From a virus, in the IMG/VR virus record IMGVR_UViG_3300034521_000108, positions 1-29,209 of that record: 29,209 nt of DNA; one strand, given 5' to 3'. Below are positions 3,981 through 29,022 of this stretch, piece by piece. The notes below the pieces were generated by a model. It did no database searches, had not been told where the DNA came from, and saw only the letters and a list, made by a program, of their open reading frames with translations. How positions within the stretch are numbered: position 1 is the stretch's first letter; the number at the start of each line of letters is the position of its first letter. The position numbers and the translations under genes were made by a program.

Positions 3981-4674
3981 TCATTGCCTCCAGTGCGCTG
4001 AGATCACTTCCTGTGAAAAGAATGGCTGCAGTATGTACCGCATCCGGATGGGGGATATTTTTTACCAGCTCCACAACCGTAGTCGTCGCCGGCCCTGTCA
4101 TATTGAAAAACCAGACTTTAGCCGATTTCGCCTGCAGTTCCGTCACCCCGCTTGCGATGTCTGCCAGTGCGGCCGTTCGCTCCTGAAGAAAGCCCGCCAG
4201 CCCGGTGGTGATCGAACTCACGCTGGCAGCTGCGGCCGCTTCAAGTTTTGCAGCCTCTACACGCGCAGCATTCAGTGCCTGCCGTGTCGTTTCCGTTGCA
4301 ACGGTAATCGGGGAAGGTAATGAAGAACGCACATCAGGCAGCAGCATTTTCACCTGTTCCAGTTCACCAAACGACTGTGCCAGCCGGCGCACCTGTTTCA
4401 GCTCCGGCATGGGCAGCACTGAAGCGACGGAATCAAGGGATGAAAGCAAATCGCTGTGCGTGTTTTCACACAGCATCATGATGATATTGTGTGAGCCGGC
4501 CCCTTTCTCCAGCAGGCGTTTACCCAGATAAGAAACAGCATTTAACGGGCTGAGATACCCCCCTGACTGGGTATGCTGCCCGAGCTCCGGCACCCAGGGG
4601 TGGGCAGGAATAACACTGCAGGATAGTGAGGATAATTGCGCCGGAATACGCAGTGTTCCCTGCTGCCAGCTCAT
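3973..4674 (-). CDS. Phage tail protein, function unknown
   Basis: 233 residues in the distal tail cluster, overlapping the next gene by eight bases and sharing a TAATG with the fibre assembly gene upstream. The middle (about 125-175) is an alanine-rich helical, probably coiled-coil segment (NAARVEAAKLEAAAAASV), flanked by globular ends. No catalytic motif or membrane segment is evident. By position it corresponds to one of the last tail genes of HP1-type phages, possibly a hub-associated or injection protein. The assignment is by context only. Confidence 0.5.
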   Translation of the reverse strand: MSWQQGTLRIPAQLSSLSCSVIPAHPWVPELGQHTQSGGYLSPLNAVSYLGKRLLEKGAGSHNIIMMLCENTHSDLLSSLDSVASVLPMPELKQVRRLAQSFGELEQVKMLLPDVRSSLPSPITVATETTRQALNAARVEAAKLEAAAAASVSSITTGLAGFLQERTAALADIASGVTELQAKSAKVWFFNMTGPATTTVVELVKNIPHPDAVHTAAILFTGSDLSALEAMIG

Positions 4675-4907
4675 TATGATTGCTCCGGTAATTCAGTGTC
4701 AGGTACCGCAGAATTCCCGGTCAGTACTGGCTTACCATTCCTTGCAACGATGACGGTTTTCCCTGATTCCTGTCCTGCCATTAGCTGGGAATAAAGCTCA
4801 GGAGCAATTTTTATTGCATCATCAGGCCAGGTTCCTGCTCTTTCATACAATGTCTGTAATGCTTCTGCGTAAAAAGCATTATTCGCTGCGCTGTAAAAAT
4901 AGTTCAT
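4674..4907 (-). CDS. Short tail fibre assembly protein (Tfa-like)
   Basis: The product from ATG 4907 has 77 residues: MNYFYSAANNAFYAEAL followed by AGTWPDDAIKI. That YFYSA...FY...GTWPDDA pattern is the N-terminal domain of tail fibre assembly chaperones (P2 gpG, lambda Tfa), which help fold the fibre tip. Family members are usually 130-200 residues; the C-terminal part is missing here, though the frame ends cleanly and overlaps the next gene, so this is a naturally short form or an old truncation. It starts one base after the fibre stop, so it is likely coupled to it. The longer upstream reading (from 5183) overlaps the fibre gene and is not used. Confidence 0.75.
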   Translation of the reverse strand: MNYFYSAANNAFYAEALQTLYERAGTWPDDAIKIAPELYSQLMAGQESGKTVIVARNGKPVLTGNSAVPDTELPEQS

Positions 4908-8979: not shown

Positions 8980-9301
8980 AGTCAATTCCCTGTGAGAGTG
9001 GTCCGAAATCGTAGGTATCTGCAGTGACAAAGAGCCTTGTGGTACTTTCTTCTGTGACCACAGCCGTACCCGGAACAATGCGTTCGTCATCTTCAATCAG
9101 CAAAATCATCTGGGTGAAAATGTCACTGCGCAGCGTAGGGCTTCGCTCGGCGATCAGCGCGGTGGCCAGCCCGCTTTCCATAATGGCGTGAACCAGATCC
9201 TGTCCGATGCTGTAGCGGTTATTACAGAGCACCGGCTCATTGCCGGCATTCAGTGCGATATCCCCGCCAGTGATCAGCAGGTCTATGAATAGCGCGTTCA
9301 T
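8960..9301 (-). CDS. DUF2590-type baseplate protein (gp25/gpW-like position)
   Basis: 113 residues from ATG 9301, which shares an ATGA with the tape measure stop. The sequence (MNALFIDLLITGGDIALNAG, YSIGQDLVHAIMESG) is typical of the DUF2590 family found between tape measure and baseplate J in HP1/K139-type phages. By position and size it takes the place of P2 gpW/T4 gp25, a wedge protein at the start of sheath assembly. The upstream reading from 9319 would enter the tape measure gene and is not needed. Confidence 0.7.
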   Translation of the reverse strand: MNALFIDLLITGGDIALNAGNEPVLCNNRYSIGQDLVHAIMESGLATALIAERSPTLRSDIFTQMILLIEDDERIVPGTAVVTEESTTRLFVTADTYDFGPLSQGIDYGNAET

Positions 9302-11493
9302 CCCTGTGTCTCCTGCCATTCACGTAAAAGTGCCGGCGTTGGCATCTGCTGCACCTGAATAGTCGTGTTGCCAAACGTTTTACGCTGGTCGATGGTGGTC
9401 TGACCGTTACTTACTGCGCCTGCAGCCTGAACGCCATTTCGTCCAACACCCTGCGCGGTACCTCCGGTCAGCAATTCAGGTGCCAGTGAGGCTGGCACTG
9501 CAGGATGAGCCTGGGCAGTCTGCATCAAATCAATGTCAATACCCGGTAACTTGTTAAGCCCGCTCACTATCCAGTTAAACGTATCGCTGAAGCTGGCTTT
9601 AATGACCTGCCACAATCCGGAGAACATATTGCCAATCGCCGAACTCATATTTTTGAACGACTCAATCGGCGATGAGAGGTTGAAAGCAGCAATAACCTCC
9701 AGCCATCCCTGCTTAATAATGCCTATTGCGTCAAATAAATGACCCGTCCAGGTGATAACCAGCTGAATGGGTGACAGGATCAGACCAATGGCCTGCGCCA
9801 CGAACTGGCCACATGCCACGCCCGCACTGGTTACACCCTGGAGTTCTGCGGCGCTGGACTGGATGGGGGAAATCAGATTAACAAACCAGCCAAACAGCGC
9901 TTTAACCGTGTTCCATACTCCGGATATCGCACGACCAATCAGGCTGAATACACCATCAAACGGCGAAAGTGATCCGGCTGCCTGAATAAAACCATCAATA
10001 AAACCGCTGATGAACGCCTTAATCGGTTGCCAGCAGGCATAAACCGCCAAGCCCAGTCCGGCTATCACCGCAATCACGGCCAGCACAGGCCACAGCAGGC
10101 TGGTAGTCGCAATACCTGCGGCCCCCGTGGCAATGGAGTACGCCAGCATTGCACCACGGATAAACGTCATTGTGGCGCGAAAAGCCAGCATGGCTTTGTT
10201 ACTCACCCACAATGCTGCGGTATAAATGCGTACGGGCAACGTTACTGCGCCCCATGCCGCGCGAAATGCCAGCAATGACAATTGCCCGGCGCCCAGCATC
10301 AGATTGACAGCCGCACCTGCAGCTGTCGCACCAATGATGGCCATAACAACCAGCCCGATAGATTTGGTGATATGCGGGAATAATTCCTGCCAGCGCATAA
10401 ATTGTTTGCCGGTATCAGCCACGCCGTTCAGCAACGGATAAATCGTCGGTAACAGCGTGCTACCAATGACGATCCTGACAGCGTCCATGTAAGCGGTGAG
10501 CCGTTCCCAGGGATCCACCATGTTTTTCGCCATTGCCACGGCTTTGTCCAGGCTGTTCGTTGAGCCAATGGCAACAATATTGTCCTTCAGCTGCCCGGTG
10601 TTATTTATCAGTAGCTTAATCATGGCCACAGCTTCATCGGATCCAAACGCCTTTTTGATGAGATCAGAATCAGCAACTTTACTCAGGTCACCGTATTTCC
10701 CCCGGATCAGCTCCAGTATCTGCGGCGTGGACTTCATGCGCCCGGAGGCGTCCGTAAACTGCAGCCCCAGCGTTTTCGCTGCACCACCGACGCCGGCAAG
10801 GAAAGACTTGTATTTAGTCCCGGCCTCCGAACCCGACATGGTGGCCTGCAGCTGACCGAGAACCGCGAACTGTTCTGACACATCCGCACCGGCGGACGTC
10901 GCTGACGCCCCCAGCGCAGTGAATGCCCCGGACATTTCGTTACCTGTGGTTTTGAACATCTGCACGGCATACGCCGTTTTGCCGGCAATCGCGTTAACCC
11001 AGTCAGCATTGCCCATTGCATCAGCGTCTTTTTTGAAGATGCCGTACATGGTGCCCATGTAGTTGGTGATGGTGGCCGCATCGGATTTCGTGGCTTTAGC
11101 CAGCACGCTCGAGGCGTTAGTGAATGCAGCCAGATCGTTGCCGGCGAGGCCAGAAATCGCCGACTGGATATCGTAGGAAGATTTGACGAAATCGGCGGCG
11201 CTGCCACCGTACTCGATAGAGAAATTCATCGCCGCATCACGCAATGCGTTCAGCGCGTTCTCGGCGGTACCCAGGCTTCGTACTTCACCCAGCGCCATGT
11301 TCATTTCGTGCGCCGGCTGCAGTACCGCTTTGATGCCCATCCCTACACCAAGCAGTCCGGCACCGCCGACCGCAACATTGGCAAACGCCTGCCGGGAAGC
11401 ACCAGCAAAGCCCTTAACCCCGGCCTCTGCCTGTTTCAGCGGCCGGGTAATTTTATCAATCAGTGAGAGGGTAAAGTCGAGTTGTGCGCTCAT
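9298..11493 (-). CDS. Tail tape measure protein
   Basis: 731 residues, the second-largest late gene after the tail fibre. The N-terminal third is the TP901-like core (AGGAGLLGVGMGIKAVLQPA, then LGEVRSLGTAENALNALRDA), followed by the helical 'SFLAGVGGAAKTLGLQFTD' region. Four or so long hydrophobic segments lie between about 375 and 490 (GLVVMAIIGATAAGAAVNLM, VLAVIAVIAGLGLAVYACW), as expected of a protein that enters the host inner membrane. The length sets the tail at roughly 110 nm by the usual 0.15 nm per residue. It overlaps the chaperone -1 frame stop (ATGA) and the next gene. Confidence 0.92.
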   Translation of the reverse strand: MSAQLDFTLSLIDKITRPLKQAEAGVKGFAGASRQAFANVAVGGAGLLGVGMGIKAVLQPAHEMNMALGEVRSLGTAENALNALRDAAMNFSIEYGGSAADFVKSSYDIQSAISGLAGNDLAAFTNASSVLAKATKSDAATITNYMGTMYGIFKKDADAMGNADWVNAIAGKTAYAVQMFKTTGNEMSGAFTALGASATSAGADVSEQFAVLGQLQATMSGSEAGTKYKSFLAGVGGAAKTLGLQFTDASGRMKSTPQILELIRGKYGDLSKVADSDLIKKAFGSDEAVAMIKLLINNTGQLKDNIVAIGSTNSLDKAVAMAKNMVDPWERLTAYMDAVRIVIGSTLLPTIYPLLNGVADTGKQFMRWQELFPHITKSIGLVVMAIIGATAAGAAVNLMLGAGQLSLLAFRAAWGAVTLPVRIYTAALWVSNKAMLAFRATMTFIRGAMLAYSIATGAAGIATTSLLWPVLAVIAVIAGLGLAVYACWQPIKAFISGFIDGFIQAAGSLSPFDGVFSLIGRAISGVWNTVKALFGWFVNLISPIQSSAAELQGVTSAGVACGQFVAQAIGLILSPIQLVITWTGHLFDAIGIIKQGWLEVIAAFNLSSPIESFKNMSSAIGNMFSGLWQVIKASFSDTFNWIVSGLNKLPGIDIDLMQTAQAHPAVPASLAPELLTGGTAQGVGRNGVQAAGAVSNGQTTIDQRKTFGNTTIQVQQMPTPALLREWQETQG

Positions 11494-12435: not shown

Positions 12436-12821
12436 CGCAGCTCAAAGTGCGGGCAATCCCAGTTGTCATTACCGACAGTGTGCCCATCGCCATTGAAATC
12501 ACCGCCCCAGCGCAGCGTAACCCCCAGCTCACTGGCAGCAGCAAACATCGCATCACGCAACGGGAAAAACTCTGCCGCTTTCCAGGTACCACCCACAGGG
12601 AATAAATCCACTGCCAGCCCGTCCTGATGTTTGCTGTGTGCCACCTTTGTTTTGCGTTCTGCCAGCAGCTGACGCTGACGCTCTGCTGTACGTAACCCTT
12701 CAATGACGATGAAATCCACCTTCGACAACTGCAGCGCACGACGCACCACAGCCTGAAGTTTTGGGTTAACTCCGCGCAGGCTTTCCTCGCTGCGACGACT
12801 GAAAACAAATCCGTTGCTCAT
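12432..12821 (-). CDS. Endolysin, M15-family L-Ala-D-Glu peptidase
   Basis: 129 residues. The zinc-site pattern of M15C peptidases is visible: SKHQDGLAVDLFPV (H and D ligands) and the C-terminal DCPHFELR (second His). RTAERQRQLLAERKTK upstream is also typical. The enzyme should cut the L-Ala-D-Glu bond of the peptidoglycan stem peptide, like phage T5 endolysin, where P2 has a lysozyme-type muramidase (gpK). There is no signal peptide, so release depends on the holin. Start ATG 12821 overlaps the holin stop. Confidence 0.9.
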   Translation of the reverse strand: MSNGFVFSRRSEESLRGVNPKLQAVVRRALQLSKVDFIVIEGLRTAERQRQLLAERKTKVAHSKHQDGLAVDLFPVGGTWKAAEFFPLRDAMFAAASELGVTLRWGGDFNGDGHTVGNDNWDCPHFELR

Positions 12822-18582: not shown

Positions 18583-19485
18583 TTACAGCCAGACTTTGTT
18601 TTCTTCGCCCGGATTTTCATCCGGCTTTTTGGTGGTACTGTTACCCGCCAGTGCATCGAACTTCTGGGTAATCGCGTCCAGCTTTTCATCCAGCTTGGCG
18701 ACATTCGCCAGTTTGGTTTCCAGTTGGGTGAACTGCTCAACCGAGATACCTGTTACCACCGGTTTTTCTTCCGGTTTCACCTCGGGTTTGTCTGGCTCTG
18801 CTGAAGGCTTACCGCCGGCACTAAACGCTTTCACCTGTTCCTGAATGCCGGTGATAGCCGTATCCTGGCTATCCATACGCCCCATCAGCGCATCGAACTG
18901 TTCCTTGGTCATTTCATCCTCTTCCGTGGTTTGAGGTGGGTTTTCTTTTTGGCGACTGAAGAAGCGCTGCAGGAATGATGTTTCCCGGACCTCTGTTGGT
19001 TCGCTGATATCCTTCAGCTCACCCAGAGAGAATGCTTCTGCACCACTTTGAGACAGCTCTGACTGATAACTTCCCATGCTGAACATCAGACGATCGGTTC
19101 CCAGCGAGGCAGGAATATCGGTGACAGTAAGACCGACTAAATAGCATTCACCTGTGCCGGCAAAATTCTCTGCAACCTCAATCGAGGTGAACAGTTTCTG
19201 CCCTGCTTCATTAGTGGAGATCAGCCAGTCATTAGGCATTAACTGGGCAAACAATTTCAGAGTGCCATCAACACGCTCCGCTTTCAGACCATCCACCTCG
19301 CCATAGTTGTAGCTCCATGAACGGGCTTCCATGCTTTTATCGTGGCGTGGCCAGATAAGCGCCGTGTAAGTCTGGCGGTTATACGTTTTGGCCGCTCCCT
19401 GCAGCCATTCTTCCTTGATTTCGCGTCCGTCCGCTGTTTTCCCTGCGGTAGCAACACAAATCCAGTCTGTGCGTAAGCGTGGCAT
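18583..19485 (-). CDS. O: Capsid scaffold and maturation protease O
   Basis: 300 residues. The protease part carries Asp19 (KTADGR), His48 (WPRHDK) and Ser101 (LFTSIEV), which line up with the Asp-His-Ser triad of P2 gpO (D19, H48, S107). About 120-150 reads GECYLVGLTVTDIPASLGTD, also conserved. The C-terminal part is acidic and helical (scaffold), with a Pro/Glu-rich linker (about 240-255). It guides capsid assembly and then cleaves O, N and Q. It is the first gene of the late minus-strand operon; the promoter should lie within 19486-19651. Confidence 0.93.
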   Translation of the reverse strand: MPRLRTDWICVATAGKTADGREIKEEWLQGAAKTYNRQTYTALIWPRHDKSMEARSWSYNYGEVDGLKAERVDGTLKLFAQLMPNDWLISTNEAGQKLFTSIEVAENFAGTGECYLVGLTVTDIPASLGTDRLMFSMGSYQSELSQSGAEAFSLGELKDISEPTEVRETSFLQRFFSRQKENPPQTTEEDEMTKEQFDALMGRMDSQDTAITGIQEQVKAFSAGGKPSAEPDKPEVKPEEKPVVTGISVEQFTQLETKLANVAKLDEKLDAITQKFDALAGNSTTKKPDENPGEENKVWL

Positions 19486-19493
19486 AACGTCCC

Positions 19494-19610
19494 TGTTCGT
19501 CTTAGTCCCTGGACTCCAGTTAAACGGAACAAGAGAAGAAATTCACTTAGCAGAGTTTCGTGGGGTTTCGCTGCATTTCGATAGCGGAACGCAGCGGAAT
19601 TGAGCGGAAT
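19494..19610. promoter_or_regulatory. Divergent late control region with phased repeat array
   Basis: Between the O and P genes lie two repeat structures. First, TGTTCG (19494-19499) and CGGAACA (19525-19531) flank a perfect palindrome CTGGACTCCAG (19509-19519). Second, six related elements follow at 10-bp steps: TTTCG at 19556, 19566 and 19576, then the inverted form CGGAA at 19585, 19595 and 19605 (three copies of AGCGGAAY at 19583, 19593, 19603). One-helical-turn spacing puts all on one DNA face. In P2 this interval holds the two divergent Ogr-activated promoters; the usual TGT-N12-ACA motif is not present, so this Ogr homologue may use the sites here. Confidence 0.5.
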
Positions 19611-19651
19611 GCAACCTGTTGCCATCACGTCAGAATGGTCGAAAAGGAACT

Positions 19652-21448
19652 ATGGCCAGAGGGAACATGGCACAAAAATATTCAGAGGAAATCAGGGACG
19701 TCGCCCGCGCCCTGTATCTCAAACGATGGACACCGCAGGAGATCAAAGAGGAGCTGCGGCTTCCCAGCGTGCGCATCATCTACTACTGGGCCGAGAAGTT
19801 CAGCTGGCGTGACTTGCTGAGCGAGGAAGGTGTTGAGGCAGCATTATCCCGTCGCATCCAGGTACTGACAGACCGTGATGGCAAATCGCAGCTCGAGCTG
19901 CAGGAGCTGGACCAGCTCGTTGGCCATCACGTAAAACTGCTGGCACAACGTGCAAAACGGGAAGAGAAGCTCCTGCAGCTGCAGCACCTGCAGGAGAGTG
20001 GCAAATCATGCGCTGATGGTACCCTCACGGATGAAGGTACCAGCCAGCAACGCAAAGGCCGTAAGCGTAAAAATGACGTCAGTGAAATTACCGCTGACAG
20101 CTTTAACGAGTGGGTGTCGGTACTGTTTGGGTACCAGCTGACGCTGCGCGAAAACCTGCATCAGAAAATCCGTAACATCCTCAAAGCCCGCCAGCTCGGT
20201 GCCACCTGGTATTTTGCCGGCGAGGCACTGGAAGACGCGATACTTAATGGAAAGCCACAGGTTTTCCTGTCAGCGTCCAAACGCCAGGCAGAAGTATTCC
20301 GACGCTATATCGTGCAGATAGCGCATAAATTTCTAGGCATCGAGCTGACCGGTAACCCGATACGCCTGAGCAACGGCGCTGAGATGAGTTTTCTCGGTAC
20401 CAACAGCAATACAGCCCAGTCGGAAAGTGCCAACGTCTATATCGATGAATATTTCTGGATCCCGAAATTCCGCAAGCTGAACGACGTTGCATCGGCGATG
20501 GCCACACACGACCACTGGCGCATCACCTACTTCTCCACGCCCAGTTCAAAAGCGCATGAAGCTTACCCGTTCTGGACCGGGGATGAATGGCGACGCGGCC
20601 GGTCAGAGCGAAAGAACATTGAATTCCCGACCGAGGCTGAACTGCGTGACGGCGGCAGGCTGTGCCCGGATAAGCACTGGCGCTTTATTGTCACGATCGA
20701 AGACGCGGTAAAAGCCGGATTTAATCTGGCGAACGTTGATGACCTGCGCGACCGTTACAGTGGCCCGGCCTTCGACATGCTGTTTATGTGCGTGTTCGTG
20801 GACGATAAGGATGCCGTTTTTGCCTTCGACCAGCTGATGAAATGCGGTACCGACCCGGGACTATGGCAGGATTTTAAACCTGATGAGGCGCGGCCGTTTG
20901 GCAACCGGGAGGTCTGGGGCGGGTACGATCCAAGCCGAACCACCGACAATGCGACATTTGTCGTTATCGCGGTACCACTGTACGCCGCCGAAAAGTATCG
21001 GGTACTGCGAAAGTGGGTCTGGACGGGCCTCTCATTCAAGTTTCAGGCCGAGCAGATAAAGAAAATTAAAGAAGCGTACAACCTTACCTACATCGGGATC
21101 GATGTCACCGGCATCGGTGCCGGCGTATTCGATATTGTCAGCGCGTTTGCGCCCCGGGAGGCTGTTCCTATCCACTACAGCGTGGAGAGTAAAAACCGCC
21201 TGGTCCTGAAGATGATCGACGTGGTTGGCGGCAACCGTATCGAGTGGGACCGTGAAGACAAAGACATTGCGGCCAGCTTTATGGCCATCAAGCGCACCAC
21301 CACCGCCAGCGGTAACGCCATGACGTTCGTCGCCACGCGGTCACAGGAAACCGGCCACGCAGATTCATTCTGGGCGATATCCCATGCCATGCAGAACGAA
21401 CCGCTGAACACCGAACATAAACGCAAATCGAGATGGGTCCTTGGATGA
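19652..21448 (+). CDS. P: Terminase large (ATPase) subunit P
   Basis: 598 residues from ATG 19652 (SD AAAAGGA); an ATG at 19667 is the alternative, and the TTG at 19619 is poor. About 10-45 is a helix-turn-helix (ALYLKRWTPQEIKEELRLPS). The ATPase has KARQLGATWYFA (about 178-189) in place of a standard Walker A and VYIDEYFW (about 262-269) as Walker B, both as in P2 gpP. The C-terminal nuclease-like part includes VWGGYDPSRTTDNATFV and YIGIDVTGIGAG. It powers packaging into the prohead, with M cutting at cos. It shares an ATGA with the portal gene. Confidence 0.93.
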   Translation: MARGNMAQKYSEEIRDVARALYLKRWTPQEIKEELRLPSVRIIYYWAEKFSWRDLLSEEGVEAALSRRIQVLTDRDGKSQLELQELDQLVGHHVKLLAQRAKREEKLLQLQHLQESGKSCADGTLTDEGTSQQRKGRKRKNDVSEITADSFNEWVSVLFGYQLTLRENLHQKIRNILKARQLGATWYFAGEALEDAILNGKPQVFLSASKRQAEVFRRYIVQIAHKFLGIELTGNPIRLSNGAEMSFLGTNSNTAQSESANVYIDEYFWIPKFRKLNDVASAMATHDHWRITYFSTPSSKAHEAYPFWTGDEWRRGRSERKNIEFPTEAELRDGGRLCPDKHWRFIVTIEDAVKAGFNLANVDDLRDRYSGPAFDMLFMCVFVDDKDAVFAFDQLMKCGTDPGLWQDFKPDEARPFGNREVWGGYDPSRTTDNATFVVIAVPLYAAEKYRVLRKWVWTGLSFKFQAEQIKKIKEAYNLTYIGIDVTGIGAGVFDIVSAFAPREAVPIHYSVESKNRLVLKMIDVVGGNRIEWDREDKDIAASFMAIKRTTTASGNAMTFVATRSQETGHADSFWAISHAMQNEPLNTEHKRKSRWVLG

Positions 21449-22473
21449 GTAAAAAAAACCGTAAACCCGTGACGGCAGAAAATACCGCGCCGGCGCAGCA
21501 GAAAATGAGCATGATCACCTTTGGTAACCCGGAGCGGGCTATTCTCAACCCGCTCGAATATGAACCGGTGTATTACGACAGTTCGAGCCAGTTCTACACG
21601 CTGCCGGTCAACCGGCTGGCGCTGGCTGAACTGCCGGACATTAACGGCCAGCATGGTGGTATTCTGCGTGCCAGAACCAACATGATCACCGCCGATTTTG
21701 TCAGTGGCGGTGGCATGGTGCAGGAAACCATCCAGGCTGCGGTGATGAATCTGCTCACCTTTGGCGATGTCGCGCTGCTCAAGCTGCGCAATGCCTTTGG
21801 TAAGGTGATTGGCCTGCATCCCCTTCCCTCACTCTATCTGCGCCGTGGTAAAGACCAGAAATACTATATTGTGCAAAAGAGCGGTGCATTGACGTATGAA
21901 GAGAAAGATATTGTCTTTATCAAACTCTATGACACGCGCCAGCAGGTCTACGGTAAGCCTGATTATCTCGGGGGGATCCACAGCGCCATGCTCAACAATG
22001 AAGCCACCATTTTCCGCCGTCGTTACTATAAAAACGGCGCCCATCTCGGATACATCCTCTACACCACTGACCCGAACATGACGGACGAAATGGAAGACGA
22101 GATGAGAAAGCAGATTGCCGCCGGCAAAGGCGTGGGCAATTTCAAATCGATGATGATCAACATCCCGAACGGGAAAGAGAAAGGTGTGCAGCTCTTGCCT
22201 GTCAGCGACATGACCGCGAAAGACGAGTTTGTGAACATCAAAAATATCTCGATGCAGGATATTCTGAATGCCCACCGTTTTCCGCCGGGCCTTGCCGGTA
22301 TGATGCCGAACAATAACAGTTCTTTCCCGGATATCACGAAAACCCGCCAGGCCTATCAGCGCGATGAAGTGACCCCGGTACAAAAACTGATTACTGATGC
22401 GGTGAACAAAGACACAGATATTCCTGCAAATTTACGCATGAATTTCACACAATCAACACCAATTGATGCATAA
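21445..22473 (+). CDS. Q: Portal protein Q
   Basis: 342 residues from ATG 21445, which overlaps the terminase stop (ATGA); the in-frame ATG 21433 lies inside P. The sequence (MITFGNPERAILNPLEYEPV, LYLRRGKDQKYYIVQKSGAL, DAHRFPP-type 'ILNAHRFPPGLAGMMP' near 280) is typical of P2 gpQ (344 residues), the dodecameric connector through which DNA enters and leaves. P and Q are transcribed away from the O-L operon, as in P2. Confidence 0.94.
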   Translation: MSKKNRKPVTAENTAPAQQKMSMITFGNPERAILNPLEYEPVYYDSSSQFYTLPVNRLALAELPDINGQHGGILRARTNMITADFVSGGGMVQETIQAAVMNLLTFGDVALLKLRNAFGKVIGLHPLPSLYLRRGKDQKYYIVQKSGALTYEEKDIVFIKLYDTRQQVYGKPDYLGGIHSAMLNNEATIFRRRYYKNGAHLGYILYTTDPNMTDEMEDEMRKQIAAGKGVGNFKSMMINIPNGKEKGVQLLPVSDMTAKDEFVNIKNISMQDILNAHRFPPGLAGMMPNNNSSFPDITKTRQAYQRDEVTPVQKLITDAVNKDTDIPANLRMNFTQSTPIDA

Positions 22474-22529: not shown

Positions 22530-22793
22530 ATGCGGATCAAATGTCCGGAGTGCGGTGCAAGAGCAGTGATTAAATCCACCAATCCTATTCACCCGCAGCT
22601 AACTGAGGCGTACTGTGCCTGTAGTGATGTGAACTGCGGCCATACTTACGTTTTACAGGTATCGTTTAAACATACTCTCAGCCCCAGCAGAAAATCGCTG
22701 GACGACCTGCTGGTAGGATTGATCTGTTCGCTTGGTCAGAAACAGAAAGCAGAGTTGCTGGACAGGCTGAATCATTCAGGTGCAGCGGCATGA
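22530..22793 (+). CDS. ogr: Late transcription activator Ogr/Delta
   Basis: 87 residues with the zinc ligands of the family: C5 and C8 (KCPECGA), then C31 and C36 (ACSDVNCGH), in the C-X2-C-X22-C-X4-C spacing. Ogr-type proteins bind upstream of late promoters and contact RNA polymerase alpha. SD AAGGAG lies nine bases before the ATG. In P2, ogr is next to gene D at the far end of the late genes; here it follows the portal gene, 56 bases on, and ends at a terminator. It could thus be made from the P-Q transcript, giving positive feedback, or from a promoter in the 56-base gap. Confidence 0.92.
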   Translation: MRIKCPECGARAVIKSTNPIHPQLTEAYCACSDVNCGHTYVLQVSFKHTLSPSRKSLDDLLVGLICSLGQKQKAELLDRLNHSGAAA

Positions 22794-28001: not shown

Positions 28002-28994
28002 ATGTCGATTAAGAAGCTCGATGATGGTCGTTTTGAAGTGGACGTAAGACCGCGCGGAACTTCAGGGAGAAGGATTCGTCGCAAATTTAGTCGTAAAGCG
28101 GAGGCTCAGGCATATGAAAAGTATGTTCTGACAAACTTCCATGATAAAGAGTGGCAGGACAAACCCGCAGACAGAAGACTACTGTCTGATTTGATTGCTA
28201 TATGGTGGAGTTACCACGGAAAGAATCACAATTATGGTGACTCATATAAAAAGCGCCTGGATAAAATCAATCGCGAAATGGCCGAACCCAGAGTGTACGA
28301 ACTTACCCGTAACTTTTTGATGAAACATCGTGCAGAAAGACTTCATAGCGGAGTCTCGGCCGGAACGGTTAACAGGGATTTCTGTGTTATGTCCAGCATG
28401 TTCAGTCTGTTGATCGATATGGAGGAGTTTCACCACGAAAACCCATTCCATACTGTGAAGAAACTGCGTCTGGAAAATACAGAAATGTCGTTTCTGTCAG
28501 AAGAAGAAATCCGCAACTTGCTGAATGCTCTTACCGGGGATGACCGCAGGGTTGTCGTTCTGTGCCTGAATACAGGTGCACGATGGGGAGAGGCCAGTAA
28601 TCTCAAAGCTGAACACGTTATAAGTAACCGTGTTACGTTTGTTAAGACTAAAACAGGCCCAGCTCGTACCGTACCGATATCAAAGGAAATCGCGGACTAT
28701 ATCCTCACGCGCAAATCGGGGAAATTATTCGATACCAACTATGAACGGGTTCGTGATGTTCTTCGTAGGATAAAGCCAGACTTACCGAAAGGTCAGGCAT
28801 TGCATGTTTTACGCCATACCTTTGCAACGCATTTCATGATCAACGGTGGAAATATCATCACGCTACAGCGCATTCTGGGGCATACGACAATTGAGCAAAC
28901 AATGACATATGCACACTTCGCCCCCGATTATCTGACTGATGCAATACGCTTTAATCCAATGCGCGGGAGTGTCCACATAATGTCCATGAACTAG
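28002..28994 (+). CDS. int: Integrase, tyrosine recombinase of P2 type
   Basis: 330 residues from ATG 28002, chosen for its SD (CGGAGGG) and for the start MSIKKLDDGRFEVDVRP, which matches P2 Int; the frame opens earlier at 27975. Catalytic residues: R194 (TGARWGE), K217 region (VKTKTG), H268 and R271 (LHVLRHTFATHF), H294 (ILGHT) and Y303 (MTYAHF). It recombines attP in the raiA-pheL gap. It follows C in the same direction, so lysogenic transcription covers both. It ends just before the arm sites and attR. Confidence 0.95.
   Translation: MSIKKLDDGRFEVDVRPRGTSGRRIRRKFSRKAEAQAYEKYVLTNFHDKEWQDKPADRRLLSDLIAIWWSYHGKNHNYGDSYKKRLDKINREMAEPRVYELTRNFLMKHRAERLHSGVSAGTVNRDFCVMSSMFSLLIDMEEFHHENPFHTVKKLRLENTEMSFLSEEEIRNLLNALTGDDRRVVVLCLNTGARWGEASNLKAEHVISNRVTFVKTKTGPARTVPISKEIADYILTRKSGKLFDTNYERVRDVLRRIKPDLPKGQALHVLRHTFATHFMINGGNIITLQRILGHTTIEQTMTYAHFAPDYLTDAIRFNPMRGSVHIMSMN
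28970..28990. promoter_or_regulatory. Candidate integrase arm-type sites, attR side
   Basis: TGTCCACATA (28970-28979) and TGTCCATGAA (28981-28990) are 11 bp apart and overlap the end of int. The same 10-mer lies at 171-180 beside attL. Confidence 0.55.
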
Positions 28995-29022
28995 GGCATT
29001 TTAGGGTGTATTAGGGTAAAAG
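28991..29022. repeat. Candidate Cox-binding repeat, attR copy
   Basis: Near-copy of 27561-27594, with TTAGGG at 29001 and 29011 (10-bp spacing). It lies between the arm sites and the core, where P2 Cox binds to favour excision. Confidence 0.6.

Follow-up and report, generated by a model that had tools for sequence, protein, structure and literature searches.

Late-gene activation in the P2 family of phages is a textbook case drawn from P2, 186 and P4, all of which carry the site TGT-N12-ACA. That site is missing from a large branch of the family, which includes HP1, K139, phiO18P, ESSI-2 and the phage analysed here. The late promoters of P2 and 186 are activated by Ogr/B, with TGT-N12-ACA as the consensus (PMC3931495). 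In the Ralstonia phages phiRSY1 and phiRSA1, the motif TGTTGT-X13-ACAACA has been proposed for the late promoters (PMC5694545).

As far as the literature covered goes, the late-gene switch of the HP1/K139 branch has so far been left to annotation notes. The GenBank record of HP2 (NC_003315) contains a repeat_region at 12555-12610 with the remark that it 'most likely contains promoters for late genes of HP2'. Neither a 10-bp comb at this locus nor its agreement with Ogr is described in the open papers that were searched. An earlier mention may exist in Kapfhammer 2002, on the K139 genome, which lay outside this scope.

The window, meaning the whole 29,209-nucleotide stretch of the viral record IMGVR_UViG_3300034521_000108, belongs, as a prophage, to the HP1/K139 branch of Peduoviridae. 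Its close relatives are found in Cedecea and Buttiauxella, and the hosts of the wider branch include Vibrio, Aeromonas, Pseudoalteromonas, Oceanimonas and Pseudomonas, among others. Sequence comparison makes it very probable that an array of short elements in this phage serves P_O and P_P, two late promoters placed back to back, as the core to which their activator binds; the reader is most likely an Ogr-type activator.

The array between the O and P operons

The array sits between the divergent O and P operons, the location of P2-type late promoters (Table 1). The start of P was picked from the conserved MA.KY start of its relatives, the reading frame being open from a TTG at 19619 and containing another ATG at 19652. 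The Ogr product at the end of the P operon has the zinc motif CX2CX22CX4C (C5, C8, C31 and C36). Searches of solved structures and folds gave no significant match for this protein, and its AlphaFold model (pLDDT 84, pTM 0.50) consists of a three-strand ribbon plus two helices, which is too little for modelling DNA contacts. Past ogr come a primase-type replication gene, Cox-like and repressor genes and the integrase. Directly past the integrase gene, TAGGG occurs three times at exact 10-bp spacing (28992-29016); these repeats are possibly integrase arm sites.

Table 1. Features of the late promoter region and neighbouring genes in the window (-10 boxes, start sites and the role of the array are predictions)
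Feature	Position	Strand	Remarks
O, capsid scaffold/protease	18583..19485	-	first gene of leftward late operon; phrog_73
P_O -10 box, TTAACT	19518..19523	-	predicted, with start near 19511
Six-element array	19556..19609	none	10-bp pitch; predicted activator-binding core of divergent late promoters
TTTCG, outer O-side element	19556..19560	+	canonical
TTTCG, inner O-side element	19566..19570	+	canonical; O-facing end to O -10 box, 47 nt
TTTCG, extra element	19576..19580	+	in central gap
CGGAA, inner P-side element	19585..19589	-	canonical; P -10 box 46 nt away
CGGAA, outer P-side element	19595..19599	-	canonical
CGGAA, extra P-side element	19605..19609	-	over P_P -35 position
P_P -10 box, CAGAAT	19631..19636	+	predicted, with start near 19643
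P, terminase large subunit	19667..21448	+	phrog_5909
Q, portal protein	21433..22473	+	homology to relatives' Q
Ogr/Delta-family zinc-finger activator	22530..22793	+	end of P operon; PF04606, 64.1 bits (cut-off 26.3); phrog_603

The preliminary description listed three TTTCG and three CGGAA elements at positions that a sequence check found to be exact, and took the two halves to be mirror images. The halves are indeed similar but not exact inverses, the reverse complement of TTTCG being CGAAA; in the same reading direction they are TTTCG and TTCCG. The reported absence of TGT-N12-ACA was borne out, with none in the O|P intergenic region (19486-19651) and 4 matches window-wide against 7.9 expected. 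A nearby 11-bp sequence, CTGGACTCCAG (19509-19519), had been called a perfect palindrome; it is palindromic, but its centre is unpaired. As one unit with its flanks TGTTCG and CGGAACA it is not conserved among close relatives, and it falls on the predicted start site for O; both palindrome and flanks are therefore probably incidental.

Exact 5-mers repeated three times at a fixed step of 10 were found in the window as the two combs of the array and one more at 28992, against an average of 0.03 in shuffled sequences. Two such combs within 60 bp of each other were seen in none of 100 dinucleotide-preserving shuffles of the window.

Four of the six elements stand in the register common to the branch, and the other two are of restricted conservation. 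The extra element at 19576 is degenerate in most close relatives and, among those aligned, intact only in L008; the one at 19605 is present in relatives of the same Ogr type (L003 and L008, with CGAAA in L004) and missing in L082, a Buttiauxella prophage. The 3+3 form of the window is therefore read as a local extension of a branch-wide 2+2 array. A further CGGAA (19525-19529) adjoins the O -10 box, exactly 60 bp, or six turns, from the element at 19585. Relatives that share the Ogr type of the window retain it, L082 with its different Ogr does not, and it may be one more activator contact.

Conservation and promoter geometry across the branch

The O|P intergenic regions from 133 loci and the window were dereplicated, and 43 regions of the branch were analysed. 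Counting exact 5-mer self-repeats, which involves no motif model, gave 78 at a distance of 10 in these regions against 9.4 +/- 4.1 expected (z 16.8). Among distances of 5 to 40, none of the others gave a comparable count, and the 10-bp peak was not found in three coding control segments of the same loci.

When a mirrored two-pair layout was fitted to the 43 regions, the inner element had the consensus ATTC(G/C)GAT and the outer one TTCNG, the usual arrangement in the branch being outer-10-inner-17/18-inner'-10-outer'. The spacing of the inner pair is 17 or 18 in 36 of the 43 regions, and the gap between the halves, taken modulo 10, is 7 or 8 in 40. The three exceptions are weak fits from Pseudomonas, whose members match the layout weakly or not at all. 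The window array has the defining features of the branch's array, namely mirrored tandem pairs at 10 bp, a gap of 17/18 plus or minus whole turns, and a -10 box 46-48 nt off both inner elements.

The pattern TTCGG-N5-TTCGG-N12..15-CCGAA-N5-CCGAA has 47 matches in the 2.9 million viral contigs of IMG/VR, and 46 of them are at an O|P junction. The sole carrier elsewhere (L187) is an unrelated viral contig with iterated GTCCGAA/TTCGGAC repeats at about 4480-4610, upstream of a primase-like ORF, which look like a separate iterated binding site. The window-type pattern TTYCG/CGRAA has three matches, two of them close relatives with the array at O|P; the third (L191) was rejected as a chance match in coding sequence.

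Promoter positions were sought with a standard -10 matrix, applied at all offsets in 37 relatives. A single strong peak was obtained on both sides, 47 nt from the inner element, with z values of 13.6 (O) and 10.7 (P). With the predicted -10 boxes taken to start at -12, the elements fall near -59 and -49. The -10 boxes of the window itself are poor, which counts against the promoter reading. The two best combinations of an element pair and a -10 box genome-wide are P_O and P_P, both in the window and in five complete relatives, and these phages therefore appear to use one divergent promoter pair. A further copy of the array in the window was considered and rejected, the next best element pair lying inside the exonuclease gene with no -10 box.

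In 20 of the 37 dereplicated relatives the predicted P -10 box ends at most 9 nt (nearly always 6-7) from the terminase ATG, as in K139 (L135, 15445-15433), so close that the terminase mRNA is predicted to be leaderless. For the window, a leader of about 24 nt is predicted instead.

It could be argued that Ogr reads one P2-like dyad for both promoters, the inner inverted pair TTCNG-N14-CNGAA, with the outer and extra elements as auxiliaries. P2 and 186 use a single shared site, and in the present branch conservation is highest in the inner pair, its 17/18 gap is common, and the Pseudodesulfovibrio members (L113 and L114) show little beyond it. However, the two halves in HP2 are one turn further apart and the 47 nt to each -10 box are retained, suggesting that the functional unit is the tandem pair tied to a promoter. 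Since the outer elements at exactly 10 bp are also conserved across most of the branch, a shared dyad seems rather unlikely.

Ogr and other candidate readers of the array

The letters of the array follow Ogr more closely than they follow the terminase. Across 83 dereplicated loci, array distance correlates with Ogr distance at 0.61 and with terminase distance at 0.41, although the terminase gene adjoins the array and ogr lies 3 kb off. In partial Mantel tests on these loci, which remove shared ancestry incompletely, the array-Ogr correlation given terminase is 0.57 (p 0.0005), and the array-terminase correlation given Ogr is -0.32.

The Buttiauxella prophage L082 and the window share 89% identity in the terminase but 47% in Ogr, and TTCGG replaces TTTCG/TTCCG in the array of L082. 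Only 24 of 54 positions are identical in the array, compared with 40/66 and 42/58 in the flanks. Judged from these alignments, L082 is a natural switch of Ogr and array together, and the flanks are better preserved than the array between them.

At the level of residues, Ogr proteins with both K16 and D26 belong to 58 of 58 TTCGG-type loci and to none of the 25 others. The pair and TTCGG change together at 4-5 independent places of the terminase tree, a number too small for significance, and the residues were chosen post hoc after inspection. Three further phages with K16 and D26 (SW3, SMHB1 and ev015) all have TTCGG. The exceptions are HP1 and HP2, which combine R16/R26 with TTCGG, and L008, with D26 and TTCCG. 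In the AlphaFold model both positions are in the first two ribbon strands. HP2 (L136) encodes its Ogr homologue at 9299-9577 (-), where its record has no annotation; in the counterpart stretch of HP1 (L194, about 4471-4731) the first CxxC is seemingly frame-disrupted, perhaps by a sequencing error.

Phage promoters are often bound by host factors, and a host transcription factor could in principle read the array. It is very improbable that this is so, because the same TTCGG array recurs among phages from Enterobacterales, Vibrio, Aeromonas and marine hosts, and the array differs between close phages that have different Ogr proteins. Another phage regulator, either of the Cox/Apl type or the CI repressor, is very improbable as well. 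Although 186 Apl and P2 Cox are annotated as binding multiple adjacent sites, the Cox and CI proteins of phages sharing the array belong to separate families: of 15 pairs of compared phages that share the array, 5 have related Cox proteins, 7 have related CI proteins and all 15 have related Ogr proteins, which makes Ogr the only regulator homologous throughout. In addition, none of the best element pairs of the window is in the cI-cox intergenic region.

The packaging reading, also put forward in the preliminary description, treats the array as a cos-like or terminase recognition element. The array does adjoin the terminase gene, yet the cos site of P2 is located past Q, the linear records of K139 and HP2 end near int, between the late operon and int, the letters of the array do not follow the terminase once Ogr is accounted for, and the distance to the -10 box is fixed on both sides. 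A role in packaging is thus extremely unlikely. Lastly, chance repetition, which might be suspected of short elements within a 166-bp region, is ruled out by the shuffles of the 43 regions and of the window and by the in-register conservation across the branch.

The original suggestion of a new Ogr-type recognition array is well supported by promoter geometry, by conservation throughout the clade and by co-variation with Ogr rather than with Cox, CI or the adjacent terminase. Since the array keeps the same distance to both promoters in dozens of phages and its letters track Ogr, it is very probably the landing site of this protein.

Proposed mechanism and comparison with known systems

It is proposed that the Ogr of the HP1/K139 branch would recognise short TTCNG elements arranged in tandem pairs, whose exact 10-bp pitch would place successive molecules on the same helix face. 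Each promoter would be served by a separate pair, at about -59 and -49 and 47 nt from the -10 box, and with two mirrored pairs one loaded array could recruit RNA polymerase both ways for the head, tail, lysis and packaging genes. Binding by Ogr, the tandem oligomer mode, activation and the exact start sites are all inferred. The position of ogr at the end of the P operon would make feed-forward possible. In the window the array may have grown from 2+2 to 3+3, the additional P-side element covering the -35 position, and the extra activator contacts might make up for the weak -10 boxes. The label of nucleoprotein nucleation site, offered earlier for this array, fits only as a statement about such a binding mode, with tandem Ogr on one DNA face.

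A more specific version is advanced tentatively, as a possibility. Ogr of this branch might form head-to-tail tandem oligomers on one face of the DNA at the 10-bp pitch and choose between TTCGG, TTCCG and TTCCT largely via residues 16 and 26, in the zinc-ribbon hairpin. If so, array and activator would evolve as a matched lock and key. The branch thereby gains a defined site, a fixed promoter geometry, a named putative reader and candidate specificity residues, which opens the question to direct tests. It also provides naturally matched activator-operator pairs whose specificities differ.

Among the described systems, the repeat annotated in HP2 is at the same locus as the window array and of the same kind. 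The K139 record lists putative promoters P16 and P17; the -10 box of P17 lies no more than 2 bp from the one identified here, and P16 is placed elsewhere. These annotations come without motif, register, activator or clade-wide comparison. The Ralstonia phages phiRSY1 and phiRSA1 are similar in having an Ogr homologue and a proposed motif upstream of late genes, but theirs is a dyad related to the P2 consensus, occurring in four regions, and a 10-bp comb has not been reported for it.

P2 and 186 share with this branch a divergent promoter arrangement flanked by O and P and the same family of zinc-finger activators. Their activator sites are annotated at about -55, and the elements of the HP1/K139 branch would, with the predicted -10 boxes, fall around there, near -59 and -49. 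Instead of TGT-N12-ACA, the branch has tandem TTCNG elements at a 10-bp pitch, with one mirrored set per promoter. P2 has four late promoters and a single promoter pair was found here, and ogr, which lies beside D and int in P2 and 186, is beside Q in this phage. The array is therefore outside the TGT-N12-ACA promoter class, while its position and presumed role are alike.
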